NCBI GenBank assembly: GCA_937928555.1
Contig: CALFWR010000016.1
Span: 1 to 64,000, forward strand
Source: an uncultured Pirellulaceae bacterium
Lineage (GTDB): Bacteria; Planctomycetota; Planctomycetia; Pirellulales; Pirellulaceae
Direction of reading: 5' to 3'
Length of the DNA: 64,000 bases
Position 1 is the first letter of the stretch. Each line of letters starts with the position of its first letter. A program made the translations under genes and the position numbers. Positions 13,896 through 53,615 of this stretch are shown piece after piece. A model generated the notes under the pieces. It was not told the DNA's origin, ran no database searches, and saw only the letters and a list, made by a program, of their open reading frames with translations.

Positions 13896-14083
13896 CCCGG
13901 AATTATTCACCACGACGGGCGTTGATTCTACGTTTGGCCAACAGGAGCAAGGGAAAAACTGAATTTCAACAAGAAATGTGAATCATTCGGTAGGTGAAAG
14001 ACACAGCGATCGTTTCATCGCATTAGAGTAACCGATCACTGTCTCAACTGATTCTGACGCCCACGCTTGGTGAATAATCTGGG
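13896..14083 (+). repeat. R1 repeat, copy A (188 bp, MITE-like)
   Basis: Left end CCCGGAATTATTCAC, right end TGAATAATCTGGG, with the R1 core (GTTTGGCCAACAGGAGCAAG). CTTG lies immediately on both sides, consistent with a 4-bp target duplication. It lies 7 bases past the end of the gene at 14091-14747, without interrupting it. Confidence 0.85.
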
Positions 14084-14090
14084 CTTGCAT

Positions 14091-14747
14091 CTACCGCGTC
14101 GGAAAAGCCGTGATTACGCGGTCATCGGCAAGAACAAGCTTTACCCGTTTGAGCTCACGACCACCGTTTCGCTTGCCCTTGGCTCCGCCGTCGAAGCCAA
14201 CCTTGCGGTTCATCTCCACGACATAGGTGTTTTTGCCCTGAGACCGATCGGCCTGGACGCGACTGGATTTCGCTTTGGCCAGTTCGTACGCCTCGTCGAT
14301 CAACTTGAAGACCTCAACGCCTTTTTCCAGAAAAATCCCGTGGGCGGGCTTTGATGGATTGTCCTTGCAATGCAATAGCACGTGCTCAATCCGATGCTCG
14401 CTGCGACTGGGCGTGTACACCAGGCCCGCCGGAGACCTGTAGCGGTTGTCGCCTGTGCTGGTCAGCCAGTTGCGGACCGCTGTCCCGGCATCTCCAGCGG
14501 CGGAATCTTTCGCCGAGTTGGATTTTTGGTTTTGGCCCGGCAGTTTCGCGTCGTATTTGAAATCGCCCGAAGAACTGTCGCCCCTGTCCTTGTTGTTGTC
14601 GGCCTGACTGAGTGACGGCAACTGCATATTCAAGACCCGCTCAAGCGTAGGGCGGGTGAAGTGATAGGCTCCCGCCAGCAACAGCAGGCCTATAATGATG
14701 AGCAACTGTTTGGAATTAACTTTTTTGGAGTTAGCTTGAACGTTCAT
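14091..14747 (-). CDS. Single-pass membrane-anchored protein, unknown function
   Basis: A 218-residue protein. The ATG at 14747 (MNVQANSKK...) is preferred over the longer frame because a basic N-terminus and a hydrophobic anchor (LLIIIGLLLLAGAYHF, about 13-28) follow directly. The next 60 residues are low-complexity (Ser, Asp, Asn, Lys, Gln), probably a flexible periplasmic linker. The C-terminal domain (about 95-218) contains SEHRIEHVLLHCKDNPSKPAHG and ends in VIEMNRKVGFDG-like and RVKLVLADDRVITAFPTR stretches. The His pattern (HRIEH, LLHC, AHG) and the closing strands recall small BECR-type RNase or toxin domains, but this is only a resemblance. It is divergent from the gene at 14850. The stop codon is 7 bases from R1 copy A. 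Confidence 0.7.
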   Translation of the reverse strand: MNVQANSKKVNSKQLLIIIGLLLLAGAYHFTRPTLERVLNMQLPSLSQADNNKDRGDSSSGDFKYDAKLPGQNQKSNSAKDSAAGDAGTAVRNWLTSTGDNRYRSPAGLVYTPSRSEHRIEHVLLHCKDNPSKPAHGIFLEKGVEVFKLIDEAYELAKAKSSRVQADRSQGKNTYVVEMNRKVGFDGGAKGKRNGGRELKRVKLVLADDRVITAFPTR

Positions 14748-14849
14748 GAAGGATCTTGCTGGATTTCTGGCGGGATCGAAGCCACAGTTTCGCAAATCCT
14801 CTGAACTTGGCAACACGAACCACAGCCCCCTTTTTTCGGACTTGGACCA

Positions 14850-15173
14850 TTGATTGACGCAATTCGCGCCCAAATGCTGCTGCTGAAGTGCCGCGGCGAC
14901 GAAATCTGGTCCGAGGAAGTTTGCCGCAAGGAAGGCGTGCCCCAAAACTGGATCGACGAACTGGCCGAAAACTACGAATCCGGTTTCGACCAAAATGAAA
15001 ATATGATCTTCACCGACGATGGACTGACCAACCAGTATCGCGGAGTAAGTGACTTGCTGTTGGCCCGTCGACTGGCCGAACGGATCGGAATCGACTGGCC
15101 ACTCGCAACCATGGGGATCCTTGGCCGCAGAAACCAGGTAGACGCGATCAAGGAAATGCTTGACGAGATCTAG
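14850..15173 (+). CDS. Small conserved acidic protein, unknown function
   Basis: A soluble protein of about 107 residues. The frame opens at TTG 14850; an ATG at 14874 (MLLLKCRGDEIW) is an alternative, and neither has a clear ribosome site. It is rich in charged residues (DEIWSEEVCRKEG, DELAENYESGFDQNEN) with a short helix-rich C-terminus (LLARRLAERIGIDWP ... AIKEMLDEI). No signal peptide, membrane segment or metal motif is visible. It looks coding from its codon use and balanced composition. It is divergent from the membrane protein at 14747, with 102 bases between starts. I do not recognise the family; it may be a planctomycete-specific protein. Confidence 0.6.
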   Translation: MIDAIRAQMLLLKCRGDEIWSEEVCRKEGVPQNWIDELAENYESGFDQNENMIFTDDGLTNQYRGVSDLLLARRLAERIGIDWPLATMGILGRRNQVDAIKEMLDEI

Positions 15174-15442
15174 ATTTCACCAACTGTCGCGGGACTTCTG
15201 TTGCTAGCAGTTAAATGACGAAAAGTGCTGTCCGCCAAAGCGCGGGCGTTGCGATACAAGGTGGAATAATCCACAGGCAATTGGCAGAGCTAAACTTTTC
15301 CATTTTGCCCAGTCGATACAGGAAATATCGAAAACTCTTTTCGTTCACGGATGACAACTTACGGGCGGGCGGGTCCTGCCTTCCAATGATCCCGATTTTC
15401 TGGGCAGGAACCAAGACCTGGTCGCTCTACGGAGGCAAGAGT

Positions 15443-16222
15443 ATGAGCCAGGTTTCTAGCACCCCGATGCAACATTGGATCTCCCACAAAGTCCTTGCTG
15501 TTGTTTTTTTCTTCTCGTTGTGTTGCAGCGCGTTCACACAAACCAACGCTCAGGTCGGCAAAGAGTCCGGGCTATGGGAGTGGACCCCCATCGCCGACCA
15601 TCACCATTCCATTGTGGAAATTAACTCTGCGGGTGGAACCGGGACCGGTGTTGTCGTTGAAATCGATGAAGACAAACCTCTCAAGGGAGGATTTGAAGGC
15701 TACGTTTTGACGGCCTACCACGTTGTTCAGGATGACAACGGCGATGGCAAAATCAAAGTCAAATATCGCAATGGGAAACGGGCACGCAAATGCCGCATCG
15801 TCCATTCGGATGAACAAAAGGACGTGGCTTTGCTGTGGGTATGGGTGCCCGATGGCATCACCTGCTCGCCGGTCGCCAGCGATCCGATCGAATCCGGCGA
15901 TCGACTTGAATTCGCGGGACTCGGTGGTGGCTCTCAGCTGAAGTGCTGCATCCGCCACTTTGCCGCTGTGGCTTCGAGTCCGTCGAGCCTCGAAAAGATT
16001 TTTGCCGATGTCCCGCTGCTGCCGGGTGATTCTGGTGGGCCTGTTTTCAATGAGAAACGGGAAGTCGTTGGCATCATTTCCGGGGGATGGTTCTGGTTCA
16101 ACAGTGGAATCACAACGCCATCGGGTTCGTTGATTCGAACGACCTGGCCGGCTCGGGCCAGCAATGTTGGGCCTTTGAAGACATTGATCGCTCAAAAGAA
16201 CGAAACCATCACCCAGCGCTGA
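15443..16222 (+). CDS. Secreted trypsin-like (S1) serine protease
   Basis: A 259-residue chymotrypsin-fold protease. The ATG at 15443 is chosen because GGAGGCAAGAG lies just upstream and a signal peptide follows (VLAVVFFFSLCCSAFTQTNAQ, about residues 17-37). The catalytic triad is visible: His in LTAYHVVQ, Asp in KDVALLWV, Ser in LLPGDSGGPVF. There is no PDZ domain, so it is not a full DegP/HtrA protein. The C-terminus (about 225-259) is short. It is probably periplasmic or secreted. It is monocistronic, and the palindromic R2 repeat begins 20 bases after the stop and may act as its terminator. Confidence 0.88.
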   Translation: MSQVSSTPMQHWISHKVLAVVFFFSLCCSAFTQTNAQVGKESGLWEWTPIADHHHSIVEINSAGGTGTGVVVEIDEDKPLKGGFEGYVLTAYHVVQDDNGDGKIKVKYRNGKRARKCRIVHSDEQKDVALLWVWVPDGITCSPVASDPIESGDRLEFAGLGGGSQLKCCIRHFAAVASSPSSLEKIFADVPLLPGDSGGPVFNEKREVVGIISGGWFWFNSGITTPSGSLIRTTWPARASNVGPLKTLIAQKNETITQR

Positions 16223-16241
16223 CTTCCAGGTTCAGGCAAGC

Positions 16242-16375
16242 CTAGTGGTTTGTTACGGCTAAGAATTAGGGTTGGCAATTTTAGCCGTTTTGGCGATAGC
16301 CACGGTTTTCGCAGCTTCAACCGTGGCTATCGCCAAAACGGCTTATCCTAAAATTGAGCTGTGACAAAGCACTAG
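16242..16375 (+). repeat. R2 palindromic repeat, copy 1
   Basis: 134 bp. The outer imperfect inverted repeat is CTAGTG(G/C)TTTGT(T/C)AC at both ends. Inside is a perfect 25-bp inverted repeat (16283-16307 and 16319-16343; AGCCGTTTTGGCGATAGCC) with an 11-base loop. Transcribed from either strand it would fold into a very stable hairpin. A second copy, split by R1, is at 32260-32585. Confidence 0.85.
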
Positions 16376-16546
16376 ACGGTAAAAACCAAAACTATTGCAT
16401 GTGTGCCTTTGCAAAACCGTCCTGATTAGATGGCGATTTGCGAAATTTCATACGAAAAAAGAAGGTCGCCAATTTCGTAAGGTAACTCACTTCAATTACG
16501 ATGTCCGTTAACTAAACCACGGAAATTCTTTTTGAAGGTGTTAAGT

Positions 16547-19024
16547 ATGACGAAATTGAGGCGAAGAGCGGGAGTCAAATCGGGAGTTAACTATCAGGTG
16601 CTGGAGCCCCGCAAAGTGCTCGCACCTCTTTTTCCGATTTACGTCAACGGTGAGCTTTCTCTGGGGGATCCTGATTCGGCAGCCCCATATCCGCTCGATC
16701 AGACGTTCGCGTTAGAAACCAATCCGGACGCAACCAAAACAATCTATCTGGACTACGACGGATTTCGCTCGGTCAACAACCGGTGGAATCACGACATCGA
16801 TTTTCCCGCATTTAGTCTTGATGGCGACACCGAGAACTTCAGTGATGCCGAGTTGATTCAGATTCAGCTACAGCTGCAAACCGTCGCCGAAGACTTCGCG
16901 CCGTTCGACATTAACGTCACCACCAGATTCCCGGGCATCGAAGCTCTTCGTCGAACTGGAGCCGCTGACCAGACCTGGGGTATTCGCGTCGTCAACACTC
17001 AACCCACCGACGGGTTCGGAGAAGATTTTGGCGGCGTGGCGTTTCTTAACAGCTTCAACGATTCTGAAGACACGCCCGCGTTTACCGTTCAGGGCGGAGT
17101 GAACGTTGGCGCGTTGACGAATTCGCACGAGGTCGGCCACTCGCTTGGCTTGCTCCACGACGGTCTTGGTGATATCCCGACTCACCCCGGCGCAGGCACC
17201 GGCCAGTTCAGTTGGGGTCCGCTCCTTGGAGCCCCCTTCAATGCCAACATCACGCAATGGAGTAATGGAGACTACGCCAACTCCACCAACAGCCAGGATG
17301 ACTTTCAGGTTATCACCAGCCGTGCCAACGGTGTTGAATTCAGGACCGATGAAGCCGGCAACAACCCCTCAAGTGCCGCTGACCTTCCCAGCGAAGACGG
17401 CGGTGTTTCGACCTTTGGGTTTATCGCTGACCGCAATGACCTGGACTATTACGAATTCAGCACTAGTGGTGGAAACGTAACGTTCACAGCAGAGGTATTC
17501 CAGGGAAGCCCAAATCTGGATGTCGAACTTCAGATCGTTGATTCCAATGGACAGACCGTCGCGATTAACTCTCCGGTCAACAGTTTGAATGCTTCGATTA
17601 GCACCTTCCTGACCGAAGGGACCTACTTCCTGGTTGTTGACGGTGTGGGCCGGGAGGGATCCTATTCGGACTACGGAAGCGTCGGCTTTTACACTCTCGA
17701 AGGTCAATTCCCTCCAGCCGAAGAACCCTCTGCTGTGGTTGGTGAATCCGGAATCGTCACGAACGTTTTCCATCAGTTCACAACCATCCAGTTCGACCAG
17801 ACGTACGAAAACCCTGTGGTGATCGCAGGGCTTCCGACTCGAAACGGTGGCGACCCGGTCACCGTTCGTGTTCGCAATGTGACTTCCAACAGCGCCGAAA
17901 TTGCACTTCAGGAATGGCTGGGACAGGACGGCCTTCACGGTTTTGAAACGGTAAGCTATGCGGTCTTTGAAGCCGGCGAGCACACGCTTGCTGATGGAAC
18001 AAGGATTCTTGCTGGAGTCGCCGGAGGACAGAACCATCGCTTCAGGCCGCACAGTTTCGGGAATACTTTCTCAAGAAGCCAGGAAGTCCCCGTTGTTCTG
18101 GCTCAGACCGTTACCAATAACGAAGCTTCCACCGTCGCGGCCAGAATCCGCGGACTCAACAGGCGTGGGTTCTCGTTGCGACTCGCCGAAGCCAACGCAG
18201 ACAACCGCATTCATGCCAACGAGCAGGTTGCATGGGTTGCGATCGAGCAGGGCATCGGACGCAACGGTCAGAACAGGTTCATTGCTGATGCAACCGCCCT
18301 TGCAGTGACTCATCAGAATTTCAGGATCAACTACGGACCTCCTTTCAGCTCGACGCCGAACCTGTTCGCCCTCGCCCAGACTCATCGTGGTGGGGACCCG
18401 TTCCAGATTCGCTTGCGTAACGCTAACCGGTTTGGGGCCACGGTCTTCCTGGAAGAAGAGCAGTCCGGAGACCTGGAAATTACTCACAACCCGGAACGAG
18501 TTGGCTACCTCGCGATTTCCAACGGAATGCTCGAACCAGCAGCCATCTCCCGCGCGGCGTCCTTTAGCGCTTCAGCAAACCAGCTACCGGACGGGGCGGC
18601 CCTGCGGAAAACCGGTCGCCTTGTCGATGGCGACCTCTCGAAGGCATTTGCCGAAATGAACTCCTACGTGTTCCAGCCCAAGGGGCTTGAAGCCGATGGA
18701 GCTCTGCTCGCAGGCCTCGGTGGTGGTGACAAAGGCGTGGCTTCGTCAACCGATGCGACTCGCATGGTCGACTTCCGAGCTCAACAAACGTCTTCAACGA
18801 CTGCCAATGTTGCAGCGCGGGATGTTGCTGGCCCGCAAGGTCCACAAAGTCTACAAGCAGCCGTCGAAGCTCGTGACGTTTCAGGGCTTGCCGGATCTAT
18901 CGACTACGTCTTCGCCGGAATTGACCTGGATTTCGAAGTGCAAGACAGTCAAAAGGATCTCAAGAACCTCGGTGACATTTACGACGACAAAACCGAAGAT
19001 CTCATTTCAATTGACCTCCTGTAG
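16547..19024 (+). CDS. LEPR-motif surface metalloprotease with PPC and H-type-lectin-like repeats
   Basis: An 825-residue protein. The ATG at 16547 is preferred (GAAGGTG upstream) over the TTG at 16532. There is no ordinary signal peptide; instead NYQVLEPRKVLAP near the N-terminus is the LEPR-type motif of large planctomycete surface proteins. TIYLDYDGF starts a metzincin-like domain with HEVGHSLGLLHDG (about residue 194), a zinc site of the HExxHxxGLxH class. A bacterial pre-peptidase C-terminal-type domain follows (about 280-385, SADRN-DLDYYEF). Three similar β modules then span about 395-690. They have patterns such as NPVVIAGLPT...VRVRN, VPVVLAQT...ARIRG and PNLFALAQT...IRLRN, which resemble H-type lectin domains. 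The C-terminal 120 residues are unassigned. Confidence 0.82.
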   Translation: MTKLRRRAGVKSGVNYQVLEPRKVLAPLFPIYVNGELSLGDPDSAAPYPLDQTFALETNPDATKTIYLDYDGFRSVNNRWNHDIDFPAFSLDGDTENFSDAELIQIQLQLQTVAEDFAPFDINVTTRFPGIEALRRTGAADQTWGIRVVNTQPTDGFGEDFGGVAFLNSFNDSEDTPAFTVQGGVNVGALTNSHEVGHSLGLLHDGLGDIPTHPGAGTGQFSWGPLLGAPFNANITQWSNGDYANSTNSQDDFQVITSRANGVEFRTDEAGNNPSSAADLPSEDGGVSTFGFIADRNDLDYYEFSTSGGNVTFTAEVFQGSPNLDVELQIVDSNGQTVAINSPVNSLNASISTFLTEGTYFLVVDGVGREGSYSDYGSVGFYTLEGQFPPAEEPSAVVGESGIVTNVFHQFTTIQFDQTYENPVVIAGLPTRNGGDPVTVRVRNVTSNSAEIALQEWLGQDGLHGFETVSYAVFEAGEHTLADGTRILAGVAGGQNHRFRPHSFGNTFSRSQEVPVVLAQTVTNNEASTVAARIRGLNRRGFSLRLAEANADNRIHANEQVAWVAIEQGIGRNGQNRFIADATALAVTHQNFRINYGPPFSSTPNLFALAQTHRGGDPFQIRLRNANRFGATVFLEEEQSGDLEITHNPERVGYLAISNGMLEPAAISRAASFSASANQLPDGAALRKTGRLVDGDLSKAFAEMNSYVFQPKGLEADGALLAGLGGGDKGVASSTDATRMVDFRAQQTSSTTANVAARDVAGPQGPQSLQAAVEARDVSGLAGSIDYVFAGIDLDFEVQDSQKDLKNLGDIYDDKTEDLISIDLL

Positions 19025-19056
19025 CCTCCTGTGAGCCACTGGCAATTCCAAACCAC

Positions 19057-19090
19057 AAAGGCGGCTCCTTGCGAGTCGCCTTTTTGTTTG
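19057..19090 (+). terminator. Terminator after the LEPR metalloprotease
   Basis: Stem AAAGGCGGCT / AGTCGCCTTT (one G-U pair) with a short loop and then TTTTTGTTT, on the plus strand, 32 bases after the stop codon. Confidence 0.75.
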
Positions 19091-19139
19091 GTGCCTGGTC
19101 GACACGATTCAGCCAGAATCAGCGCCCGCCGATTCGCCC

Positions 19140-19643
19140 CTACTCCAACGCATTTTCGGATATGTTTCGAACGCCGATTCCGCCACCCTGATCGGAATAG
19201 CCCACAAATTTTCCATTCCTGAATGACAGCCTCAGTCCGTGTTCTTCTTCCCAATCGCATTCGCCGTCAAAGAACAAATGCACATCTGAGGCGGAGCAGT
19301 CACCAGGAACAATAATTGATTCGATGCGGTAATGCTTGCCGATGTTTTCACGATTGATATGCCTCAGATCATAGTCTGAAAGGTCCATCAGTTCATCGCA
19401 TAGAGCCCGCGCCATTTCGGCGACATCATCCATCGAATCAACGATCTCCGCAGGCAAGTCAAAAAGGGTGTTGGCAATTTCAATTTGTCGATCCGTCGGC
19501 AGCACGTTTTCGTCCGGATCTGTGTTCTTGTATTCACAATGGTTGTAGATCGTCACCGTGACGGGATTGGAAAGCAATGGCACCCGTTGCCCCATGGCAG
19601 ACCACCAGTACGTATCCCATTGGAAATCAGATTTTTTTAGCAT
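19140..19643 (-). CDS. DUF6985-like domain protein
   Basis: A 167-residue protein. The ATG at 19643 has GAGGATCGATCC upstream, so the longer frame to 19679 is not used. A Trp-rich start (FQWDTYWW) is followed by GQRVPLLSNPVTVTIYNH and then an acidic section on polymerisation- or enzyme-like Ile/Val strands, ending with SFRNGKFVGYSDQGG. The first half resembles DUF6985, a family without a known role; the match is by eye. There is no signal peptide, so it is probably cytoplasmic. It is followed at 29 bases by the gene at 19673-20221, both on the minus strand. Confidence 0.65.
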   Translation of the reverse strand: MLKKSDFQWDTYWWSAMGQRVPLLSNPVTVTIYNHCEYKNTDPDENVLPTDRQIEIANTLFDLPAEIVDSMDDVAEMARALCDELMDLSDYDLRHINRENIGKHYRIESIIVPGDCSASDVHLFFDGECDWEEEHGLRLSFRNGKFVGYSDQGGGIGVRNISENALE

Positions 19644-19672
19644 GGATCGATCCTCGTTGCGTCGCGGTCGAG

Positions 19673-20221
19673 CTACCAACGACGTTGCCTTCCAAAAAGA
19701 TAATCAATCGCAGTTGCGGCGGCTTCCGACTGCGGAATAAATCGGAGCTTCCCAGCCTTGCCGTCGAGCCTGCCAAGGTACTTTGGCGTGACACTCCGGG
19801 CATGGTTTCTTATATAGCCACAGTCCTCGCCCGCGAAGTAAGCAGAAACAGTTCCCCGCGCAAGGTCGATCACGTGCTCCGAAACGGCATCATCAAGGTA
19901 CAGGATCGGGCCGGTGGGTGCATCCAGCAAATAGCAGTTGATCGGATAACCGCCGCACGTATCCACAGCCATTTCTTGCCTTTCGCCGCGAGCGTCCTGG
20001 GTATGCACAGCGATCCAGCGGTCGTACTCCGCCATCATCGGGTGAATGCCAATTCGCGAGTGCTCAATTTCGAACTCCGTATCCGAGATCCTGAAATCCG
20101 TCGTTTCCGTCACAAAGCTGTGCTCAAACAGTTGGTAATACGGCGAATTCACGAACAACATTAGCAACAACGCACTAATCGCAATTGCCAAAAACAGGCA
20201 GCCTGCAGTTTTTCGATTCAT
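19673..20221 (-). CDS. Membrane-anchored protein, unknown function
   Basis: A 182-residue protein. The ATG at 20221 begins MNRKTAGCLFLAIAISALLLMLF, a single N-terminal membrane anchor or uncleaved signal. An alternative ATG at 20245 would overlap the upstream gene by about 20 bases. The outer domain has an ordered, mostly β composition (EMAVDTCGGYPINCYLLDAPTGP, FAGEDCGYIRN) with two Cys pairs (CGG..NC and DCG) that may form disulfides. No catalytic motif is seen. It lies between the DUF6985-like gene and the three-helix membrane protein, all three on the minus strand with short gaps, so they may be co-transcribed. Confidence 0.6.
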   Translation of the reverse strand: MNRKTAGCLFLAIAISALLLMLFVNSPYYQLFEHSFVTETTDFRISDTEFEIEHSRIGIHPMMAEYDRWIAVHTQDARGERQEMAVDTCGGYPINCYLLDAPTGPILYLDDAVSEHVIDLARGTVSAYFAGEDCGYIRNHARSVTPKYLGRLDGKAGKLRFIPQSEAAATAIDYLFGRQRRW

Positions 20222-20225
20222 GGTT

Positions 20226-20531
20226 TCAGCCCTTGAGCCGTTCATTTTCGCCGGGCCGGTTGTTTCCCAACAAAGCCAAACCGCCAAGCCAAATCAATGT
20301 GTACACCGTCGATGGCAACCATCCAACAATCACAGCCAGTCCCGGAGCCAGGCTGCCATAATCAGGCGTAAACGAAAGATGATACTGCCCGCCGATGATC
20401 AAAAGAATCCACAGCGCTGCGACAGAGCAAACGACCGCTATTAAACGATGCCGGACAACCGCAAATAGCAACGGCGGGGTGACCAGAAACGCAGCGGTCA
20501 TCACAAGATCAACAATACCCAAGTTGTTCAC
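20226..20531 (-). CDS. Small integral membrane protein, three predicted helices
   Basis: About 101 residues from a GTG at 20531, the start that leaves the first helix intact. Starts at 20657 (basic extension, overlaps the neighbouring gene) and ATG 20501 are also possible. Three hydrophobic segments are visible: LGIVDLVMTAAFLVTPPLLF, LIAVVCSVAALWILLIIGG and LAVIVGWLPSTVYTLIWLGG. A short charged C-terminus (NNRPGENERLKG) follows. I recognise no family. It is between an alpha/beta hydrolase upstream and the gene at 20221 downstream, all minus strand. Confidence 0.5.
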   Translation of the reverse strand: MNNLGIVDLVMTAAFLVTPPLLFAVVRHRLIAVVCSVAALWILLIIGGQYHLSFTPDYGSLAPGLAVIVGWLPSTVYTLIWLGGLALLGNNRPGENERLKG

Positions 20532-20613
20532 CTGAAATGGACAATACGAGTGATCACCAAACCCCGACCGTCGCAGCAACGCTTTGCGGAAGACCTTCTC
20601 GCGCGCAGCGTTG

Positions 20614-21279: not shown

Positions 21280-21363
21280 ATCGCAACGAATTGTCTTGTC
21301 AAATGTCTCGCCGAATGTTCTGCCAAATGGTAACAGCGACATGCTTCCCGTGGTCGAACATCA

Positions 21364-21551
21364 ACCGGAATTATTCACGACGACGGGCGTTGATTCTACG
21401 TCTGGCCAACAGGAGCAAGGGAAAAGCTGAACTTCAACAAGAAATGTGAGTCATCCGGTAGATGAAAACCACAGCGATCGTTTGATCGCATCAGAGTCGC
21501 GGATCACTGTCGGAACTGACGCTGACGCCCACGCCTCGTGAATAATCCGGG
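21364..21551 (+). repeat. R1 repeat, copy B (188 bp, MITE-like)
   Basis: Left end CCGGAATTATTCACGACGAC, right end CCTCGTGAATAATCCGGG. ATCAA lies directly before the left end and directly after the right end, a clear 5-bp duplication. The core is the same as the other R1 copies. It lies between two minus-strand genes. Confidence 0.9.
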
Positions 21552-21573
21552 ATCAATCGCGACAGGTCGGCGG

Positions 21574-22662: not shown

Positions 22663-22698
22663 GACTGAAGGGTAGTTACAATCGACACGGGGGAATCA

Positions 22699-32259: not shown

Positions 32260-32585
32260 CTAGTGGTCTGTCACAGCTTAATTTTAGGATTAGCCGTTTT
32301 GGCGATAGCCACGGTTTAAACCCGGATTATTCACGACGACGGACGTCGATTCTACGTCTGGCCAACAGCGGCGATGGAAAAGCTGAATTTCAACACGAAA
32401 TGTAAATCATTCAGTAGATGAAAACCACAGCGATCGTTTCATCGCATCAGCGTCTCGGGTCACTGTCTCAACTGATTCTGACGCCCGCGCCTCGTGAATA
32501 ATCCGGGTTAACAGGCAATAACCGTGGCTATCGCCAAAACGGCTCACACGGTGAATCCTCATTTCTAGTTGTGACAAACCACCAG
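32260..32585 (+). repeat. R2 palindromic repeat, copy 2, split by R1
   Basis: Left part 32260-32320 (CTAGTGGTCTGTCACAGCTT ... GCCACGGTTT), right part 32508-32585 (AACCGTGGC ... GTGACAAACCACCAG). Removing 32321-32507 gives a sequence like copy 1, with the hairpin arms AGCCGTTTTGGCGATAGCC facing each other. The insertion site is within the hairpin loop. Confidence 0.85.
32321..32507 (+). repeat. R1 repeat, copy C, nested in R2
   Basis: 187 bp, CCCGGATTATTCACGACGAC to CCTCGTGAATAATCCGGG. TAA is found on both sides if the terminal base pair A/T is counted as part of the element. It is inserted in the loop of R2 copy 2. Confidence 0.88.
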
Positions 32586-37817: not shown

Positions 37818-38004
37818 CCCGGATTATTCACGAGGCGTGGGCGTCAGAATCAGTTGAGACAGTGATCCGCGACTCTGATGCGATCAAACGATTGCTGTGG
37901 TTTTCATCTACCGAATGACTCAATTTTCTTGTTAAAGTTCAGCTTTTCCCTCGCTCCTGTTGGCCAGACGTAGAGTCAACGCCCGTCGTCGTGAATAATC
38001 CGGG
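37818..38004 (-). repeat. R1 repeat, copy D (187 bp, minus orientation)
   Basis: CCCGGATTATTCACGAGGCG at left, GTCGTCGTGAATAATCCGGG at right (the reverse of A, B, C). ATTAG flanks it on both sides, a clean 5-bp duplication. It sits between the Cys-rich gene and the MerR/TPR gene. Confidence 0.92.
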
Positions 38005-39895: not shown

Positions 39896-40082
39896 CCCGG
39901 ATTATTCACGACGAAGGGCGTTGATTCTACGTCTGGCCAACAAGAGCAAGGGAAAAGCTGAACTTTAACAAGAAAATTGAGTCATCCGGTAGATGAAAAC
40001 CACAGCGATCGTTTGATCGCATCAGAGTCGCGGATCACTGTCTCAACTGATTCTGACGCCCACGCCTCGTGAATAATCTGGG
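39896..40082 (+). repeat. R1 repeat, copy E (187 bp)
   Basis: CCCGGATTATTCACGACGAA to CTCGTGAATAATCTGGG. The flanks (ATTAC and ATCAA) do not match well, so the target duplication has decayed or never formed. Confidence 0.85.
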
Positions 40083-41648: not shown

Positions 41649-41835
41649 CCCGGATTATTCACGAGGCGTGGGCGTCAGAATCAGTTGAGACAGTGATCCG
41701 CGTCTCTGATGCGATGAAACGATCGCCGTGGTTTTCATCTACCGGATGATTTACATTTCTTGTTGAAGTTCAGCTTTTCCCTTGCTCCCGTTGGCCAGAC
41801 GTAGAATCAACGCCCGTCGTCGTGAATAATCCGGG
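41649..41835 (-). repeat. R1 repeat, copy G (187 bp, minus orientation)
   Basis: CCCGGATTATTCACGAGGCG to GTCGTCGTGAATAATCCGGG. Its right end joins directly to a partial R1b element, and the flanks (CTTAC, TTCAT) do not match. Confidence 0.85.
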
Positions 41836-41836
41836 T

Positions 41837-41938
41837 TCATCAACGAGGTGAACCGAAATCTGGGCGACAATCCAGCTTTGACCTTCGCGTCAGTGAGGCT
41901 CAATTCAAATCAACGCCCGTCGTCGTGAATCATTCCGG
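41837..41938 (-). repeat. Partial R1b (102 bp) joined to R1 copy G
   Basis: TTCATCAACGAGGTGAACC ... GTCGTCGTGAATCATTCCGG equals the reverse complement of the first 102 bases of R1b at 52703-52804, with about 5 differences. Its other half is missing and is replaced by R1 copy G. Confidence 0.8.
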
Positions 41939-41981
41939 TTCATGGAAGTTGCCAAAGCCGCTGGAGGTAAGCTTCTGGGGC

Positions 41982-45194: not shown

Positions 45195-45403
45195 GGTGAC
45201 GATTCAATTGGGATGAAAACTTCAGACCGCTGGATTGATCACGGTTCGATGAGCCGCGAATCGTCTTTCGATTCTGGCGACGAATCCGGCTGACGGAATT
45301 TGATTGGAAAGTGAATGTTTGTTTGCAAAATTAAATTGAGATTGAGAACCAGTATAAATCGGAAAAAAACGTGTTCCTGCGGCTTCTCCGCAAAGTCGAT
45401 CGC

Positions 45404-47005: not shown

Positions 47006-47925
47006 TGTTCCTCCACCGGTTCGGCCATCGGAAGGTGAACAGTCAACACGTGCTGAATCAACTCTTCCTGACTTCGCGAACTTGCCTGAAAAGTTTCCGG
47101 ATTCCCAGATCGTAGCGGGTCGACGGTGACACGAATCTCAACCGCCGTGGGAAACCCGCCCTGGTCTTCGGAATCCCAAGTAGAATTCCAGCTTTCTCCG
47201 TCGAAATAACGGAACGAAACCGCTGCGACCTCGCCTGCGACAAGCTGCGCGTCCTCGTCGGGCGAAGCGACGATGGATTCTTCACCTCGAAAGTTCGCCA
47301 CCGCGCGGTCGACCGATCGCCGATAAAGCCCACCCGGCACACTCGCCTGGGCGAGCGCCAGAGCATCATCCACCGCGCCGGGCTGCGAACTGAAAAAATA
47401 ACTCACCGCTCGAATGTCCGAAGGCGTTCGCTGCTGAGCCTGACTGGTGATCAGGGGGTTGTACTGGTCCAAACGCGGCAGACGGCTGATGTCAACGCGG
47501 ATCGAATTCACGCCACCGATGAACGACGGTCGAAAGGCAACCACTTCCTCTTCGCCCACAAGGTCGCCGTCCTCTTCGTCTTCGATCTCTTCCTCTGTGA
47601 TGGCTCCGCTTTGCAGGGCGATCGTCTGTTGCAGCACCTGCAATCCCGAAAAGTCGGTTGCTTTATATTGGAGCGCCGCACGAATGTCATTGGCGATCAT
47701 GTTCAGTGTCGCTTTGGCCACCGCTTCGCGCTCGACCGCATTCTGCTGGCGATTCAGTTGCACCATGTACACCCGAATCGACGTCGTCACCATCGCGCCG
47801 ACGATCACCGTCAGCCCCAAAGCAAGGATCAGCTCAAGCAGCGTGAACCCGCGCTTCGTCGCAACACAAGCCACCTTGCGGCGACGGCCATCCGTCACTG
47901 CGATTTGTTCGAAATTCAAGTTCAT
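47002..47925 (-). CDS. gspJ: Type II secretion pseudopilin GspJ
   Basis: A 307-residue protein. A 28-residue basic leader ends in KRG; cleavage before FTLLELILALGLTVIVG gives Phe1 and Glu5 as in all major pseudopilins. The rest (VYMVQLNRQQNAVEREAV ... NMIANDIRAAL) is the GspJ β fold, with loops rich in acidic residues (EEIEDEEDGDLVGEEE). It forms the tip complex with GspI and GspK. The start of the gene overlaps gspI by four bases. Longer than the usual 200 residues. Confidence 0.85.
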   Translation of the reverse strand: MNLNFEQIAVTDGRRRKVACVATKRGFTLLELILALGLTVIVGAMVTTSIRVYMVQLNRQQNAVEREAVAKATLNMIANDIRAALQYKATDFSGLQVLQQTIALQSGAITEEEIEDEEDGDLVGEEEVVAFRPSFIGGVNSIRVDISRLPRLDQYNPLITSQAQQRTPSDIRAVSYFFSSQPGAVDDALALAQASVPGGLYRRSVDRAVANFRGEESIVASPDEDAQLVAGEVAAVSFRYFDGESWNSTWDSEDQGGFPTAVEIRVTVDPLRSGNPETFQASSRSQEELIQHVLTVHLPMAEPVEEQ

Positions 47926-48341
47926 TGAGCCCTCGCTTCGAGAGGGTCATAATCGGGATCGATCAGGAACCGGACGACCGACACCGATACCTGGCGAGTG
48001 GCTTCGGGTGAATTTTCGACGACGACCCGGGCGGCCAGCAATCCGGGCTCGGTCGCCTGCTGGATTTCAACGGAATAAGTCCAATCGGTTTCTCCGGCTA
48101 CCGGCGTTTTTCCAGCGCCTTGTGGCTCAATCGCGCCCGCGGCCAACTGAGCCATCGTCGAATCGGCGATGCGATTGGCTGCATTGATCAGCCTCGCGTT
48201 GCGGACCGATTTGTAGCCAAGAAAGAACCCACGCCCGACGACGACCATCGAACCGCCCAAAATCGCCAGCGAAAGGATGACTTCCAGCAGCGTGTACCCA
48301 CGGCCATACCGGGCTCTCAATTTTCGCTGTGCTCGCAACAT
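47922..48341 (-). CDS. gspI: Type II secretion pseudopilin GspI
   Basis: A 139-residue protein. RGYTLLEVILSLAILGG carries the prepilin site (G/Y) and Glu5. It is followed by FFLGYKSVRNARLINAANRIADSTMAQL, the GspI helix, and a small β end. It pairs with GspJ and GspK at the pseudopilus tip. It overlaps gspJ by 4 bases and begins 5 bases after gspH stops, all consistent with one transcript. Confidence 0.85.
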   Translation of the reverse strand: MLRAQRKLRARYGRGYTLLEVILSLAILGGSMVVVGRGFFLGYKSVRNARLINAANRIADSTMAQLAAGAIEPQGAGKTPVAGETDWTYSVEIQQATEPGLLAARVVVENSPEATRQVSVSVVRFLIDPDYDPLEARAQ

Positions 48342-48346
48342 AAACT

Positions 48347-48928
48347 CTACCTCAGTCTCTGCAAACGAACGGATTTGGTCAGCCCGGTCAGGCCACGCAG
48401 TTGGACTTCGACCAGGCCACCGATTTTGTTTTGCAAAACGATTCTTGCATCCTGTGAAGTCCCATCGGGATAAAACAGAACTTGCTGCAAGCCCGCACCG
48501 GCGTTGCCCGATTCAGAAATAAGCTGAGCCCCGCGAGCGTCTTCGGCCACCTGGTCAACCACAAAGTTCACGCCTTCGGGAAGCAGTCCCTGAATGAAGC
48601 TGCCTTTGGCTTGTTGTCGTGACTCGTTAAGCGATTGCTGGACCCGCGCGATCTGCTGGGGTGCCTGAGCAAACGGGGCGACGTCGAACCAGTTGCCACC
48701 CCTAGCGATAAAGACAGCAAACACATCGCCCTCTTTGACCGCACTGACGCGGGCCTGCCCCATCGCGGCCCGAACACTGTCGGCGCCGCGATCGAGAGCC
48801 TGTTGCTGAAAGATGCGATTGATCGACATCACTGAAAGTGCAGCAAGCACCCCAAGGATGCCCATCACCAGAATCAACTCAAGCAACGTAAATGCTGAAC
48901 GCTCAATTTTGCCGCGTTGATGATTCAT
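48347..48928 (-). CDS. gspH: Type II secretion pseudopilin GspH
   Basis: A 193-residue pseudopilin. The leader ends in RSA and the mature part begins FTLLELILVMGILG, so the residue before the cut is Ala, not Gly. That is tolerated by some prepilin peptidases but is unusual. The rest (GADSVRAAMGQARVSAVKEGD) is the GspH/FimT β fold. It sits between gspG and gspI with short gaps. GspH is the minor pseudopilin that links the tip complex to the GspG shaft. Confidence 0.82.
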   Translation of the reverse strand: MNHQRGKIERSAFTLLELILVMGILGVLAALSVMSINRIFQQQALDRGADSVRAAMGQARVSAVKEGDVFAVFIARGGNWFDVAPFAQAPQQIARVQQSLNESRQQAKGSFIQGLLPEGVNFVVDQVAEDARGAQLISESGNAGAGLQQVLFYPDGTSQDARIVLQNKIGGLVEVQLRGLTGLTKSVRLQRLR

Positions 48929-48958
48929 CGCACCTCCAACCCTGTGTTATCAAAAGGG

Positions 48959-49393
48959 TTATTGGCCGCGGACAGGAATATCGTCAGCGGTTCCTTTGGC
49001 ACCATCGGCTCCATTGGAAGTAATAATCAACTGATCCTGATTGGCGTTGTAACTGAAGCTGTACTGGTTTTTCCAGGGATCAACGGGAATCTTTGCATCT
49101 TCGAAGTAAGGACCGCTCCAGCTTGATTTGTTGACACCGCTAGGAAGCGTCACAAGGTCCTGCAACGAACGCGGCGGGCTACCGACTTCCATCTCGTACA
49201 TGCGACAGATCTTTTTGATGTTGTCGATCTCGAATGTCGCAGCGCGGACTTTCTGGTTCACGCCAAGCTTGTTGTAGGCGACCGTTCCGATGCCAGCCAG
49301 GACGACCAGAATGGTCATTACAAGCAAAAGCTCCAGCAGCGTGAAACCTTCACGCCGACGCAATCGTCGCCGGCTTTGTCTGGAAGTTGACAT
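48959..49393 (-). CDS. gspG: Type II secretion major pseudopilin GspG
   Basis: A 144-residue major pseudopilin. A 16-residue very basic leader (RRRLRRREG) precedes FTLLELLLVMTILVVLAGIGTVAY, with Glu at mature position 5. The family marks are EIDNIKKICRMYEMEVGSPP and then DPWKNQYSF, and an Asp-rich Ca2+-type loop at the end (NGADGAKGTADD). It polymerises into the pseudopilus. It is the first pseudopilin after gspF, with a 117-base gap. Confidence 0.9.
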   Translation of the reverse strand: MSTSRQSRRRLRRREGFTLLELLLVMTILVVLAGIGTVAYNKLGVNQKVRAATFEIDNIKKICRMYEMEVGSPPRSLQDLVTLPSGVNKSSWSGPYFEDAKIPVDPWKNQYSFSYNANQDQLIITSNGADGAKGTADDIPVRGQ

Positions 49394-49510
49394 TGAATTT
49401 CCTCTATTTTCAGTAACAAATTGATTGTTGGTGATTTGGGTTGCCGGAGAAGTTTCCCGCTACGCCCGATAAAACTCGATTTCGGGCGTGGAGTTCCGAA
49501 AAAGTCGAAA

Positions 49511-50731
49511 TTATCCAACAGTTTGCCCCATTTTCATGATCGGAGTCAGAAGTGCCACCACCACAAACAGCACGACCACGGCCATTACGACCAGCATTAG
49601 AGGTTCGATCATTTTGACCGCGATGTCCAGTCGTCTCATCGTCTGTTTTTCCAGCCCGTCGGCGATCGACACGAGAACTTCATCGAGCGTGTTGGACTCT
49701 TCGGCGACGCTGAGCATCTCGGTGACGTTGGCCGGAAAATGCCCGGATCGGGCCAGCGGCGCGGACAAGGATTCACCCGAAGTGACGTTTTCGGTTGCTT
49801 CGGCCACGGCGATCGATAGCATCTTGTTTCCGGCGGCTTCACGACTGATATCGAGCCCCTTGAGAATCGGGACACCGTTTCCCATCAACGTTCCCAAGAC
49901 GCGGCAAAACCGGGCCACCGCCAGACTTTGCAGGATCGGGCCGACCACCGGAAGCTTCAGTTTCCAGCGGTCCACAAACAGCTTGCCGGATTCAGTACTG
50001 ATCTGGTGACGCACGACCGCAAACAATGCGCCCATGCCCAAGAGTATGAACAAGCCATACTGCCGCATCACGTCGCTGAGCCACAATAGCCATTCAGTGG
50101 CCGCAGGAAGTTGGCCTTCTCTTCGCAGGTCATCAAACACTTCCGCAAATTTGGGCACAAAGAACACGATCAGAATCGTAACGATCACGGTACCAAGGAC
50201 CGCAAGAATCGCCGGGTAGATCATCGCCCCCACGGTGCGAGATTTCAGTTCCGCCTGTTGTTCGGTAAACGAACCGACCCGCGACAGGGCGTCTTCGAGG
50301 AATCCGCCTTCGGCTCCCGCTCGCGACATGTTGATCGCCATGTTGCTGAAGACTTTCGGATGCCGGGCAAATGATTTGTAAAGCTCTTCGCCGTCTTCGA
50401 CCCGGGCAATCACATCGTCCATCGCTTCGCGAAGGGATTTGATTTTTGATTGATCACGAAGCAGCGTCAGTGAACGAATCAGTGGAACGCCGTTGTTCAG
50501 CAGTGACGAAAGCTGCTCATAAAAGATCGCCATTTTGTAGTCATTGACACCGCCGCCAAAACTCAGTTCGAAGTTCGCCCCGCCCTTGGCCTCTTCGCTG
50601 TTGTGTACCTTGACCGGGAAAAGCGATTTAGCCGAAAGACGACTGATCACGTCGGCTTCAGAATTGGCGGACATCGAACCTTCGACTTTGTCCCCGGAAA
50701 GGTCGCGCGCGATGTAAGTAAATTCAGGCAT
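49511..50731 (-). CDS. gspF: Type II secretion inner membrane platform protein GspF
   Basis: A 406-residue protein with the three membrane helices of GspF. The ATG at 50731 (MPEFTYIARDLSGDKVEGSM) is the family start; the longer frame is rejected. Two copies of the T2SF domain are visible (KMAIFYEQLSSLLNNGVPLIRSL and FCRVLGTLMGNGVPILKGLD), with SRAGAEGGFLEDAL and AEESNTLDEVLVSI. It anchors the assembly ATPase GspE at the cytoplasmic face. It is preceded by gspE with a 57-base gap. Confidence 0.93.
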   Translation of the reverse strand: MPEFTYIARDLSGDKVEGSMSANSEADVISRLSAKSLFPVKVHNSEEAKGGANFELSFGGGVNDYKMAIFYEQLSSLLNNGVPLIRSLTLLRDQSKIKSLREAMDDVIARVEDGEELYKSFARHPKVFSNMAINMSRAGAEGGFLEDALSRVGSFTEQQAELKSRTVGAMIYPAILAVLGTVIVTILIVFFVPKFAEVFDDLRREGQLPAATEWLLWLSDVMRQYGLFILLGMGALFAVVRHQISTESGKLFVDRWKLKLPVVGPILQSLAVARFCRVLGTLMGNGVPILKGLDISREAAGNKMLSIAVAEATENVTSGESLSAPLARSGHFPANVTEMLSVAEESNTLDEVLVSIADGLEKQTMRRLDIAVKMIEPLMLVVMAVVVLFVVVALLTPIMKMGQTVG

Positions 50732-50788
50732 TGTGTGGATGCAACGTTGAAGCCATCTGTCAAAGCCCGTCAACCGAGCCCCGATGGC

Positions 50789-52486
50789 TTAATCGATGCG
50801 ATCTCCTTTTGTGATCCGTAAAATTTCGTCCACGGAAGTCCGCCCGCTGAGGACTTTTCGCCAGCCATCATCGCGTAGCGTCTTCATCCCGCCGTTAACG
50901 CAGGCTTTTTTGATCTCCCAGGTACTTGCACGTCGCTGAGCCAAATCGCGGACTTCTTCGCTGGTCACCAAAAGCTCATAAACGCCCATTCGCCCGGTAT
51001 AACCAACGTTTCGGCACTCGCGACATCCTACCGGTTGATACAGCGGACCATCAATCCGGTCGATCGGAAAATCGCTGGGCAGGTCAAGTTTCGAAACGTC
51101 GATGGCTTTGCGACAATTCAAACACAGCCGCCGCACAAGCCGCTGGGCCATCACCGCTTCGACGGTGCTGGCAACCAAAAACGGCTCCACGCCCATATCG
51201 CACATCCGCGTGAACGCTCCCGCCGCATCGTTGGTGTGCAGGGTGCTGAAGACAAGGTGTCCGGTCAACGAAGCCTGAATCGCGTTCTCGCCCGTTTCGC
51301 TGTCACGAATCTCACCGACCAGCACAATGTCAGGGTCGTGACGAAGGATGCTTCGCAGCGAGTTGGCGAAAGTCAGCCCGATCTTGCTGTGTACCTGAAT
51401 CTGGTTGATACCGGCAAGCTGGTACTCGACCGGATCTTCGGTGGTAATGATCTTTGTCGATGGCGTGTTGATCTCGATCAGCGAACTATAGAGCGTGGTC
51501 GTTTTTCCCGAACCCGTTGGGCCGGTTACCAAAATGATCCCGTAAGGAATCCGGATCAGTTTGCTAAACGTCTCATAAGTCTCATCCGCCATGCCCAAGC
51601 TTTTGAGTTCGAACTTCATCGAACCTTTGTCAAGAATACGCATCACCAGTGATTCGCCGTGGATCATCGGGATCACCGACACACGCACGTCGACTTCGCG
51701 GCCTTTGACTTTGAGTTTGATCCGGCCGTCCTGGGGCAGCCGTTTTTCAGCGATGTTCAGCCTGGCCATGATTTTCAGGCGGCTGATGATCGCGGCGCGG
51801 AAATGGTTGATCTCTGGCGGAACCGGTTGGGTGTGCAAGATACCGTCGATGCGGTAGCGAACGACAATCCGTTCGGCCTGCGACTCTATGTGAACGTCAC
51901 TGGTCCGCGTATCGATGGCCTCGAGAAGAATCTCGTTCACCAAGCGAATCACGCTGGCTTCCTGGGCCATCTCCGACAGTTCACTGCCGTCGGTTTCGAT
52001 GTCTTCCAGTAGCTCGACACCGTCTTCGATCTTCTGCTCGATCAAGCCTTCGATCGTCTCGCCACCGACACCCATGTGGGCTTTGACCAGTTTGGCAATC
52101 TCGCTACGTTCGGCAAGAACGGGCTCAACCGCCATCCCCGTCGCAGCGCTGGCTTCGTCAAGCGGATAAAGGTCTGTCGGATCGGCGGTGGCGACGATCA
52201 ATACGTCGTCGCGGATTTCCACCGGAAAGATCAATTGGCGGTAGATCAACTTTTGCGGAAAAGTATCCAGCAGCGTAAGGTCAACGCGGTGGTTGGCCAA
52301 ATCAAGAAAATCGACACCGTGCTCGTCTGCCAGAGCTTCATAAGCCTGCTTCCTGCCGATCAAGTCATTTCGATCGAGTTCTCCAAGAAGCGCCTCGCCG
52401 TCAAGTTCACGGGATGGATCGATTTGGCTGAGTTGCTGATCGGAGATCAAGCCGCGTTCAACCAGAAGTTCGCCGATTTGATTCAT
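50789..52486 (-). CDS. gspE: Type II secretion assembly ATPase GspE
   Basis: A 565-residue cytoplasmic ATPase that powers the pseudopilus. The N-terminal regulatory domain (about 1-150) is MshEN-like (LLVERGLISDQQLSQID, IGRKQAYEALADEH). The C-terminal core has Walker A GPTGSGKTTTLYSSL (about 322-336), the Asp and His boxes (TTEDPVEYQLAGINQ, LRSILRHDPDIVLVGEIRD) and a zinc-binding pair CLNCRK ... GCRECRNVGYTGR. Everything needed for catalysis is present. It is first in the operon; the gap upstream (52487 on) should carry the promoter. Confidence 0.95.
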   Translation of the reverse strand: MNQIGELLVERGLISDQQLSQIDPSRELDGEALLGELDRNDLIGRKQAYEALADEHGVDFLDLANHRVDLTLLDTFPQKLIYRQLIFPVEIRDDVLIVATADPTDLYPLDEASAATGMAVEPVLAERSEIAKLVKAHMGVGGETIEGLIEQKIEDGVELLEDIETDGSELSEMAQEASVIRLVNEILLEAIDTRTSDVHIESQAERIVVRYRIDGILHTQPVPPEINHFRAAIISRLKIMARLNIAEKRLPQDGRIKLKVKGREVDVRVSVIPMIHGESLVMRILDKGSMKFELKSLGMADETYETFSKLIRIPYGIILVTGPTGSGKTTTLYSSLIEINTPSTKIITTEDPVEYQLAGINQIQVHSKIGLTFANSLRSILRHDPDIVLVGEIRDSETGENAIQASLTGHLVFSTLHTNDAAGAFTRMCDMGVEPFLVASTVEAVMAQRLVRRLCLNCRKAIDVSKLDLPSDFPIDRIDGPLYQPVGCRECRNVGYTGRMGVYELLVTSEEVRDLAQRRASTWEIKKACVNGGMKTLRDDGWRKVLSGRTSVDEILRITKGDRID

Positions 52487-52702
52487 GGACTTTTTCGTTG
52501 ACGTGTTGGCAGCGGATCAGGAAAGTTTTCGGTTTTTCGAAAAGCCAACGGCAAAAGACATGCTAATTGGCTACCTGTTTAAGTACCGGCCCGTTGGCTA
52601 CAAAGCCCACGATTGCGGCAAGTATTGGGTGTACTTCCTGCGAATTTGGAGGTTCAGGACGGTCGTGCCAATCATATCGGCTCAAATAATCCCACAGTCA
52701 AA

Positions 52703-52890
52703 CCGGAATGATTCACGACGACGGGCGTTGATTTGCATTGAAACTCACTGACGCAAAGGTCAAAGCTGGATTGTCGCCCGGATTTCGGTTCACCTCGTTG
52801 ATGAAGTCCAGACCAAAGACTCTTTTCCAACGCGTGCGATGCTCATTGGCTAAACTGAAAGTTACGCCCACGCCTCGTGAATAATCCGGG
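52703..52890 (+). repeat. R1b repeat, complete copy (188 bp)
   Basis: The same first 30 bases (CCGGAATGATTCACGACGAC then GGGCGTTGATT) and last 25 bases (CGCCCACGCCTCGTGAATAA then TCCGG) as R1. The middle is different. Read on the minus strand it is an open frame of about 60 codons with INEVNRNPGDNP. It lies upstream of gspE. Confidence 0.85.
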
Positions 52891-52912
52891 TTAAAGGTTG
52901 CCAATCACACCC

Positions 52913-52976
52913 AGGAAACGCACTGCCGTGTTGGGGTGAGGGAATTCGCCTTTCGACGAACCGCAGTGCGTTTCCT
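52913..52976. repeat. Palindromic repeat with 14-bp perfect arms
   Basis: AGGAAACGCACTGC (52913-52926) and GCAGTGCGTTTCCT (52963-52976) with a 36-base loop. It starts 22 bases after R1b. It could be a terminator, a small transposon remnant or another palindrome family. No second copy was noticed in the window. Confidence 0.65.
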
Positions 52977-53312
52977 AGGTATGATCGCGTCTCTCCGGTG
53001 AAACCCCGTCTCTCGCTCAAGGTTTCGATATTTCACAGATTCTCGATATCGTCTTTTCAGGTCCGCCACGCCGAGCACGACGGTGAAACCCTTCACGACT
53101 TGTACCGCTATCGCTCGTGTTGCGTTCTGGTGACATCCGGCGATCGTTCAGCCGAAGGCATCGGCCGCGCCGTACCCTCGGGCCATCGAAGACTCGTGGA
53201 CGATAGAGAGAGTTTGGTGCCAGAGCAGTCGTCGGCGAAGCTGATTCAACGACGCCCCGGCAAATCGAAGCCACCTACGCCGGGATGTGTTCAACCAGTT
53301 CACGATGTTCAC

Positions 53313-53425
53313 GATAAACATCTGTCAAACGGATCCGTTTCGCCGTAGGAGATGCCGCCTTTGATGCCGCCGCCGGCTAAAAATATGTCGCCTGGTTTGG
53401 TGTGGTGGTCCCGACCGATGCCTTG
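53313..53425 (-). pseudogene. DUF1501 gene fragment
   Basis: The minus strand between 53425 and 53324 translates as [19 protein letters not shown] followed by [13 protein letters not shown]. This is the C-terminal motif of DUF1501 proteins (GRDH ... AGGGIKGG ... YG.TD.F). The frame then stops at 53313. Nothing else of the gene is visible: upstream is the R1 copy H at 53428, and downstream there is no match. So about 34 codons remain of a gene of about 450. DUF1501 proteins are Tat-exported and usually paired with a DUF1553 protein. Confidence 0.75.
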
Positions 53426-53427
53426 AG

Positions 53428-53615
53428 CCCGGATTATTCACGAGGCTTGGGCGTCAGAGCCAGTTCCGACAGTGATCCGCGACTCTGATGCGATGAAACG
53501 ATCACTGTGGTTTTCATCTACCGGATGATTCACATTTCTTGTTGAGATTCGTCTTTTCCCTTGCTCCCGTTGGCCAGACGTAGAATCAACGCCCAAGCCT
53601 CGTGAATCATCCGGG
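53428..53615 (-). repeat. R1 repeat, copy H (188 bp, minus orientation)
   Basis: CCCGGATTATTCACGAGGCT to AGCCTCGTGAATCATCCGGG. The internal hairpin is perfect in this copy (ACAGTGATC / GATCACTGT). Flanks TTGAG and CTGAA do not match. It abuts the DUF1501 fragment. Confidence 0.85.

Follow-up and report, generated by a model that had tools for sequence, protein, structure and literature searches.

R1 and R2 form a new and unusually abundant MITE family in the genome of an uncultured Pirellulaceae bacterium. The insertion of R1 into this genome is demonstrated by target-site duplications and by related empty sites. Both elements are likely to be non-autonomous MITE families with common ends that were mobilised in trans by a transposase, putatively of the IS1380 family. 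An earlier note had described R1 as MITE-like, non-autonomous and mobile, and all three attributes are supported by the inverted ends, the 5-bp duplications, the related empty sites and the absence of a long reading frame.

Copies in the window and structure of the elements

The window, a stretch of 64,000 nucleotides, contains all eight R1 copies (A–H) listed previously. The unit is 187 bp long rather than 187–188 bp, with copy H alone measuring 188 bp. Copy A starts at 13897 instead of 13896, and its flanking duplication is real but comprises 5 bp (CTTGC), not CTTG; copy B is present and starts at 21365 instead of 21364. With this correction, the matching flanks reported for A, B, D and F hold as exact 5-bp duplications in four of the eight copies. 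Two further elements had been overlooked, namely half of an R2 element cut at its boundary with copy G, and a diverged R2-type element with 67% identity to copy B. On the other flank of copy G, the missing half of the former was not observed. The features, including a palindromic repeat (R3), are as follows.

13897–14083, forward: R1 copy A; target-site duplication CTTGC on both sides
16242–16375, no strand assigned: R3 palindromic repeat, uninterrupted; related empty site for copy C
21365–21551, forward: R1 copy B; target-site duplication ATCAA
32260–32320, no strand assigned: left half of an R3 palindrome split by copy C
32321–32507, forward: R1 copy C, in the R3 palindrome loop; flanks TTAAA / TTAAC, one mismatch
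32508–32585, no strand assigned: right half of the same split R3 palindrome
37818–38004, reverse: R1 copy D; target-site duplication ATTAG
39896–40082, forward: R1 copy E; non-matching flanks ATTAC / ATCAA
40453–40639, forward: R1 copy F; target-site duplication CTTAA
41649–41835, reverse: R1 copy G; non-matching flanks, adjoins the half R2 element
41836–41939, reverse: half R2 element (first ~103 bp)
52703–52890, forward: R2-type element with R1 ends and length and another interior; flanks TCAAA / TTAAA
53428–53615, reverse: R1 copy H; non-matching flanks TTGAG / CTGAA

At 187 bp, R1 is a short element (below about 600 bp) with terminal inverted repeats, and neither R1 nor R2 contains a transposase gene, as expected of MITEs. 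The 16-bp terminal inverted repeats described earlier are present, but the conserved ends extend further, to about 29 bp on the left and 34 bp on the right. The 16-bp terminus is exact at the left end of 46 and at the right end of 43 of 75 sampled R1 copies, and mean conservation reaches 0.953 in the left end and 0.942 in the right end, compared with 0.812 in the interior. Variants common to several copies avoid the ends (1.79 per site in the left end, 5.06 in the interior and 1.24 in the right end), whereas private mutations do not (0.59, 0.58 and 0.88 singletons per site, respectively). This difference suggests that the ends were selected during transposition and that neutral decay followed.

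Insertion, abundance and spread

Flanks and placement were analysed in an 809-kb sample with 99 full-length elements (75 R1 and 24 R2), divided into two subsamples of 53 and 46. An exact 5-bp duplication flanks 49 of the 99 elements (26/53 and 23/46), while re-pairing of the flanks yields expectations of 1.71 and 1.38. Considered by type, 37/75 R1 and 12/24 R2 elements are exactly duplicated, against re-paired means of 1.85 and 0.78; the matching flanks noted earlier are thus far beyond chance. Among lengths of 2 to 9 bp, none apart from 5 bp is clearly enriched, and the fixed-length duplication typical of a MITE is found in both subsamples. The target follows the rule NTNAN on both sides in 59/75 R1 and 18/24 R2 elements; this pattern makes up 0.049 of intergenic 5-mers. 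Counting against this picture, the half of the sampled elements without an exact duplication resembles the consensus no less than the other half does (0.860 and 0.855, respectively).

Filled and empty sites, whose comparison in close relatives the earlier note had proposed, were found here as related (paralogous) sites, located within further repeats of this genome; such evidence of insertion is expected of a MITE. The loop site of R3 (TTAAC/GTTAA) holds R1 at copy C and on contig C149, and R2 on C35; at least two of these insertions are therefore independent. An R1 element on C87 lies inside a second repeat, which has seven uninterrupted relatives at 67.6–77.5% identity. The empty-site evidence comprises the R3 and C87 cases only, as other matches were often to the element's own locus or among R1/R2 elements themselves; a weak match for copy F (73%, gapped at the junction, locus L169) was left out of the count.

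The 16-bp terminus occurs with at most one mismatch at 1115 positions genome-wide (563 + 552), compared with 0 + 0 for a reversed-pattern control, and extrapolation from the sample gives a total of approximately 600 elements. Within the sample, 88 of the 91 elements that could be placed are intergenic and three fall in weakly scored frames; eight were unplaceable. The previous statement that no copy lies inside a complete gene holds for the window, where no copy falls in a script-called gene by its midpoint. Beyond the window, an IS4-family transposase frame on contig C96 is broken by a partial R1 that sits at the contig end. A search for the other half of this gene gave no match, so the insertion there is visible from one side only. 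No full-length R1 was found among 27 other genus members, 240 genomes from the family or 391 from the phylum, and searches of viral contigs for the end patterns gave 0, 0 and 2 stretches.

The probable helper transposase

The earlier note had reported no transposase for R1 in the window, and a search with the PF13701 and PF01609 profiles gave no match on its contig. With the same two profiles, no autonomous element carrying R1's full ends was found in this genome, a 91% complete draft. Type II MITEs lacking a matching insertion sequence are among those described (PMC3542288). The helper of R1 and R2 is quite probably an IS1380-family transposase, because paired ends of the form CCCG(G/A)ATTATTCA occur in three IS1380 elements from genomes elsewhere in the order. 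The first, L117 (G062:C620), is a 1699-bp element encoding a 498-aa transposase that scores 304.8 bits to NF033539 (cut-off 180). It carries CCCGGATTATTCAT at both ends and TTAA on both sides. This tetranucleotide (4 bp, not 5) may not be a duplication, as the inverted repeat of L117 runs on outwards across it. The second, L124, has ends CCCGAATTATTCATCA / CCCGGATTATTCATCA with GGGAG on both sides; it is only 1149 bp long, has a stop in its gene, and its GGGAG breaks the NTNAN rule. The third, L116, bears CCCGAATTATTCATAA at both ends and shows no duplication. Facing pairs of such ends were detected at 3 of 46 IS1380 loci (in three genomes) and at 0 of 35 IS4 loci, where the independent numbers are smaller, because one gene accounts for several of the 46 and a single element for 13 of the 35. 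When every locus with one such end or more is counted, the two families do not differ (6/46 and 4/35).

Duplications in the IS1380 family measure 4–5 bp, a range that includes the 5 bp of R1 and R2. Direct repeats of 5 bp have been reported for ISEcp1, a member of this family (PMC2887853). A comparison of the R1 interior with the IS1380 loci gave no convincing match (31 bp, E 0.14). The IS1380 sequences in the bacterium's own genome were rejected as partners: the gene on C119 has different ends (CTAGTCCTTAAACAAG), and the remnant on C30 is a fragment whose single end matches that of R1 at 10 of 16 bases.

The alternative that R1 and R2 are MITEs served by another transposase family, with ends of the CCCGG type by coincidence, is considerably less probable. 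It would accommodate the similarity to the IS1380 ends, which covers approximately 13 bp of the ~29–34 bp conserved, the contrast between the 5-bp NTNAN duplication of R1 and the 4-bp TTAA of L117, the best complete IS1380 match, and the outcome of the two-profile search of the genome for a partner. Against it stand the paired ends in three IS1380 elements, each from a different genome and one of them flanked on either side by a 5-bp repeat, and the lack of such pairs among the IS4 loci. The genome's single PF01609 (IS4) gene, moreover, belongs to an element with different ends. This gene, on C96, was a candidate partner because of CCCGGATTATTCATCAG just beyond it but was rejected: in another genome, a relative present in 13 copies ends in CCGAATGGCACTGTCGGG, and most of these copies carry direct repeats that by eye measure some 8–10 bp; C96 shows the same right end.

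Under the favoured IS1380 assignment, one transposase acting in trans would have moved both R1 and R2, which share the left and right ends. The enzyme would bind these ends, excise the element and link it to target DNA cut in a staggered fashion at NTNAN. Insertions would survive mainly between genes; the source transposon may have been lost or may lie where the assembly is incomplete, and the present copies would be decaying without a host function.

Relation to known systems and implications

A short protein-coding sequence in R2, and perhaps in R1, would be compatible with mobilisation as MITEs but is very improbable. In several R2 copies, a single frame with recurring residues stays open across most of the element, and the R2 consensus is open over 58 codons. 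Other R2 copies, however, contain stops or frame-changing indels, two peptides composed from copies have no Pfam match, and the longest stop-free stretch of the R1 consensus is 36 codons; R2 was thus rejected as a coding element. Hardly credible is a host-functional repeat under selection (a terminator, attenuator, protein-binding site or structured RNA, like REP/BIME), for which the intergenic placement, the 11 elements between divergent genes, against ~20 predicted by their fraction of intergenic bases, and a long hairpin of the consensus (−66 and −70 kcal/mol, without a shuffle control) could speak, whereas the duplications and empty sites show transposition, private mutations are about equal in ends and interior and reveal no constraint after insertion, the 27 genus mates have no full-length copy, the sole Rfam match in the window at the gathering threshold is a tRNA, and RNAalifold gives only −2.3 kcal/mol (mixed R1/R2 alignment).

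REP/BIME sequences are not known to make a target duplication, and R1 and R2, with 187 bp and 5-bp duplications, do not fit their definition. The former are palindromes of 20–40 bp, and REP-type repeats have been reported in the planctomycete phylum (PMC3733652). As MITEs, R1 and R2 share with Correia, Chunjie, QMITE2 and MITEPye1 a short, gene-free structure with inverted ends, direct repeats and often intergenic placement (PMC10969869, PMC11578231). They differ in copy number, with an estimated 600 full-length elements against 1–3 (MITEPye1) to >120 (Correia), and in the helper, a likely IS1380 enzyme where IS1182 was proposed by the authors for MITEPye1 (PMC10969869, PMC11578231). IS1380 insertion sequences of the order such as L117 resemble R1 in their inverted ends starting CCCGGATTATTCA and in short flank repeats; L117 differs in encoding a transposase, in an end similarity that stops after ~13 bp and in its TTAA. 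ERIC elements presumably differ from R1 and R2 in sequence. They are alike in reaching hundreds of copies in some genomes; among the figures taken from a MITE review, the highest is 711 copies in Photorhabdus luminescens (PMC10969869). Eukaryotic piggyBac elements, for whose transposases those of IS1380 were used as an outgroup, likewise have mostly CCC-type ends and TTAA-like targets (PMC10813416), whereas R1 and R2 reside in a bacterial host and use 5-bp NTNAN. The literature joining IS1380 with MITEs or inverted repeats, taken mostly as listed entries, describes no IS1380-driven MITE, and that on MITEs and planctomycetes, judged mainly by titles and the first part of abstracts, describes no planctomycete MITE.

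A broader reading, for and against which we see about equal weight, is that R1 and R2 represent an IS1380/piggyBac-type swarm, among the largest bacterial MITE loads described, which arose within the history of one species from several source elements that relied on a single transposase, since lost. The genome would then preserve the rise and decay of this swarm in fossil form, and selection would have shaped its ends solely while the elements were transposing. Some 600 elements of 187 bp would amount to roughly 112 kb, or 2.3% of the assembly. With so many copies, selection acting in the course of transposition can be separated from drift that follows insertion, and a single chromosome is provided with hundreds of scattered points for recombination.

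Copies of R1 and R2 in the window and the genome

All eight R1 copies (A–H) claimed in the earlier note were found in the window, at positions agreeing to within one base, and the unit, given there as 187–188 bp, is 187 bp. Two elements of R2, the type with the ends of R1 and another interior, were overlooked in that reading: one lies at 52703–52890, and half of another (41836–41939) adjoins copy G. Copy G and the first ~103 bp of R2 together occupy 41649–41939, and the remaining R2 half was not seen; this junction perhaps reflects a nested insertion, then deletion or recombination between elements. Elsewhere in the window, a 57-bp unit containing GTAGGGCCGGTTCCTACCGGCC is present in three tandem copies (62494–62690), and a 1502-codon frame (54934–59442) carries diverged internal repeats (families D5–D7).

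The window's genome comprises 4.87 Mb in 168 contigs and is 91% complete. A search allowing one mismatch located the 16-bp end CCCGGATTATTCACGA 563 + 552 times genome-wide, and its reversed-pattern control 0 times. A profile built from R1 detected 99 full-length and 22 partial matches in an 809-kb sample, which contains 184 ends within one mismatch. Scaling the 1115 ends by this sample yields approximately 600 full-length elements genome-wide, an extrapolation from a non-random sample and not a count. By interior, the 99 full-length elements comprise 75 R1 and 24 R2, corresponding to approximately 454 R1 and 145 R2 genome-wide when extrapolated from the same non-random sample. R1 and R2 are almost certainly MITEs.

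Insertion sites and target duplications

Genes were called on codon usage by our own procedure (535 genes, coding fraction 0.793). Among the 91 placed elements, 88 are intergenic and 3 lie within weakly scored frames, with 8 more at stretch ends; the neighbours of the intergenic elements are tandem (53), convergent (24), or divergent (11). Joining the flanks suggests a spanning frame at 4 elements, and therefore some insertions may touch genes.

Identical 5-bp flanks border 26/53 elements in one sample and 23/46 in a second, as against 1.71 and 1.38 expected from re-paired flanks. In the first set, T occupies position 2 of 25/25 exact duplications and A position 4 of 24/25. The resulting pattern, NTNAN, is present on both flanks of 59/75 R1 and 18/24 R2 copies, compared with 4.9% of intergenic 5-mers. 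The matching flanks described previously for A, B, D, and F are exact over 5 bp (4/8), while C has one mismatch and E, G, and H show no match; these three belong to the 24/75 R1 copies in the 809-kb sample whose flanks differ at two or more of the 5 positions. Such mismatched flanks are perhaps traces of recombination between copies.

R3, a near-palindromic repeat of ~134 bp with CTAG at its start and end, is a landing site for R1 and R2. The 809-kb sample contains nine matched intervals, three of them near full length.

Copies of R3
Window 16242–16375: uninterrupted R3, a near-palindrome of ~134 bp
Window 32260–32320 and 32508–32585: R3 halves split by R1 copy C
L169 5836–5969 and L168 7153–7286 (other stretches analysed): further copies

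Joining the flanks of copy C restores a palindromic R3 with 80% identity over 139 columns to the uninterrupted copy at 16242–16375, a related empty site. The loop position filled by copy C is also filled by R1 on contig C149 and by R2 on contig C35, whose palindrome carries an additional R1 with ATGAG at both flanks. Because the R1 and R2 interiors differ, at least two independent loop insertions occurred; the two R1 insertions (copy C and C149) could be one event copied along. On contig C87, R1 lies inside another repeat, for which seven uninterrupted relatives (67.6–77.5% identity) are the related empty sites. On contig C96, an IS4-family transposase frame is broken by an R1 that is itself truncated where the contig stops; a search for the far half of the frame gave no match. 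In another genome (L129), an IS1380-like element is bordered by an end (GACAGACCACTAG) that, by eye, resembles that of R3.

Candidate transposase

Judging from the ends, the transposase of R1 and R2 would probably be of the IS1380 type. A PF13701 search of the genome gave three matches: an IS1380 gene on contig C119 that spans two overlapping frames, the longer scoring 204.2 bits to NF033539; a fragment on contig C30; and, weakly, the C96 IS4 gene, the sole match to PF01609. The C119 gene was rejected as the partner of R1, as its ends differ from those of R1. A single end of related type (CCCGAATATTTCATCG) remains alongside the C30 fragment.

Among other genomes of the same order, a complete IS1380 element of 1699 bp (L117) carries CCCGGATTATTCAT at each end and is flanked by TTAA on either side. 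Locus L116 has CCCGAATTATTCATAA at both ends with no visible duplication, and L124 (1149 bp, containing a stop) has ends of R1 type and GGGAG on both sides. Facing end pairs were found at 3/46 IS1380 loci versus 0/35 IS4 loci, the loci being non-independent in either set, and at least one end at 6/46 versus 4/35 of these non-independent loci. Given these single-end frequencies, only end pairs discriminate IS1380 from IS4. The 35 loci, relatives of the C96 IS4 transposase, bear planctomycete names, among them that of the planctomycete Kuenenia, in all but one case (labelled Verrucomicrobia); from this, the host of the window's genome would be a planctomycete.

Distribution and sequence variation

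Ends within one mismatch are present in 13/59 other genomes, with a maximum of 12 per genome. Of the 27 other genomes of the genus, only G015 matched R1 DNA, with three matches of 26–28 bp at the right end; the remaining 26 had none. Among the best two or three candidates scored per genome, the search of 240 other genomes of the family gave only G015 and one 34-bp match in G320, and that of 391 other genomes of the phylum, an overlapping set, gave none. G015 contains paired ends of R1 type spaced 83 to 121 bp, which in L142 show the same left/right difference as R1. Since G015 has such pairs, ends of R1 type predate R1.

Some R2 copies are open through most of their length (e.g., L035 6513–6700 and L043 1343–1529), with the recurring residues GVGV.FS...EVNRN...FN; other R2 copies are broken. 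Inside a 489-bp R1 copy (L033 13327–13815; G000:C16:97327–97815), which has TTGAG on both sides, lies an insertion of ~302 bp. It has separate inverted ends, AGGGTGTA(A/G)TCTCGCTG, and, judged by eye, a GTTGGC duplication of 6 bp. This insertion perhaps represents a further MITE family.

Pairwise identity among the 75 R1 copies has a median of 0.89 and reaches 0.989 in the closest pair; therefore, most movement was not very recent. Variants common to at least two copies number 1.79 per site in the left end, 5.06 in the interior, and 1.24 in the right end, and single-copy variants 0.59, 0.58, and 0.88, respectively. We read this pattern of variation as indicating that the R1 ends would be selected when the elements move, with no constraint afterwards.
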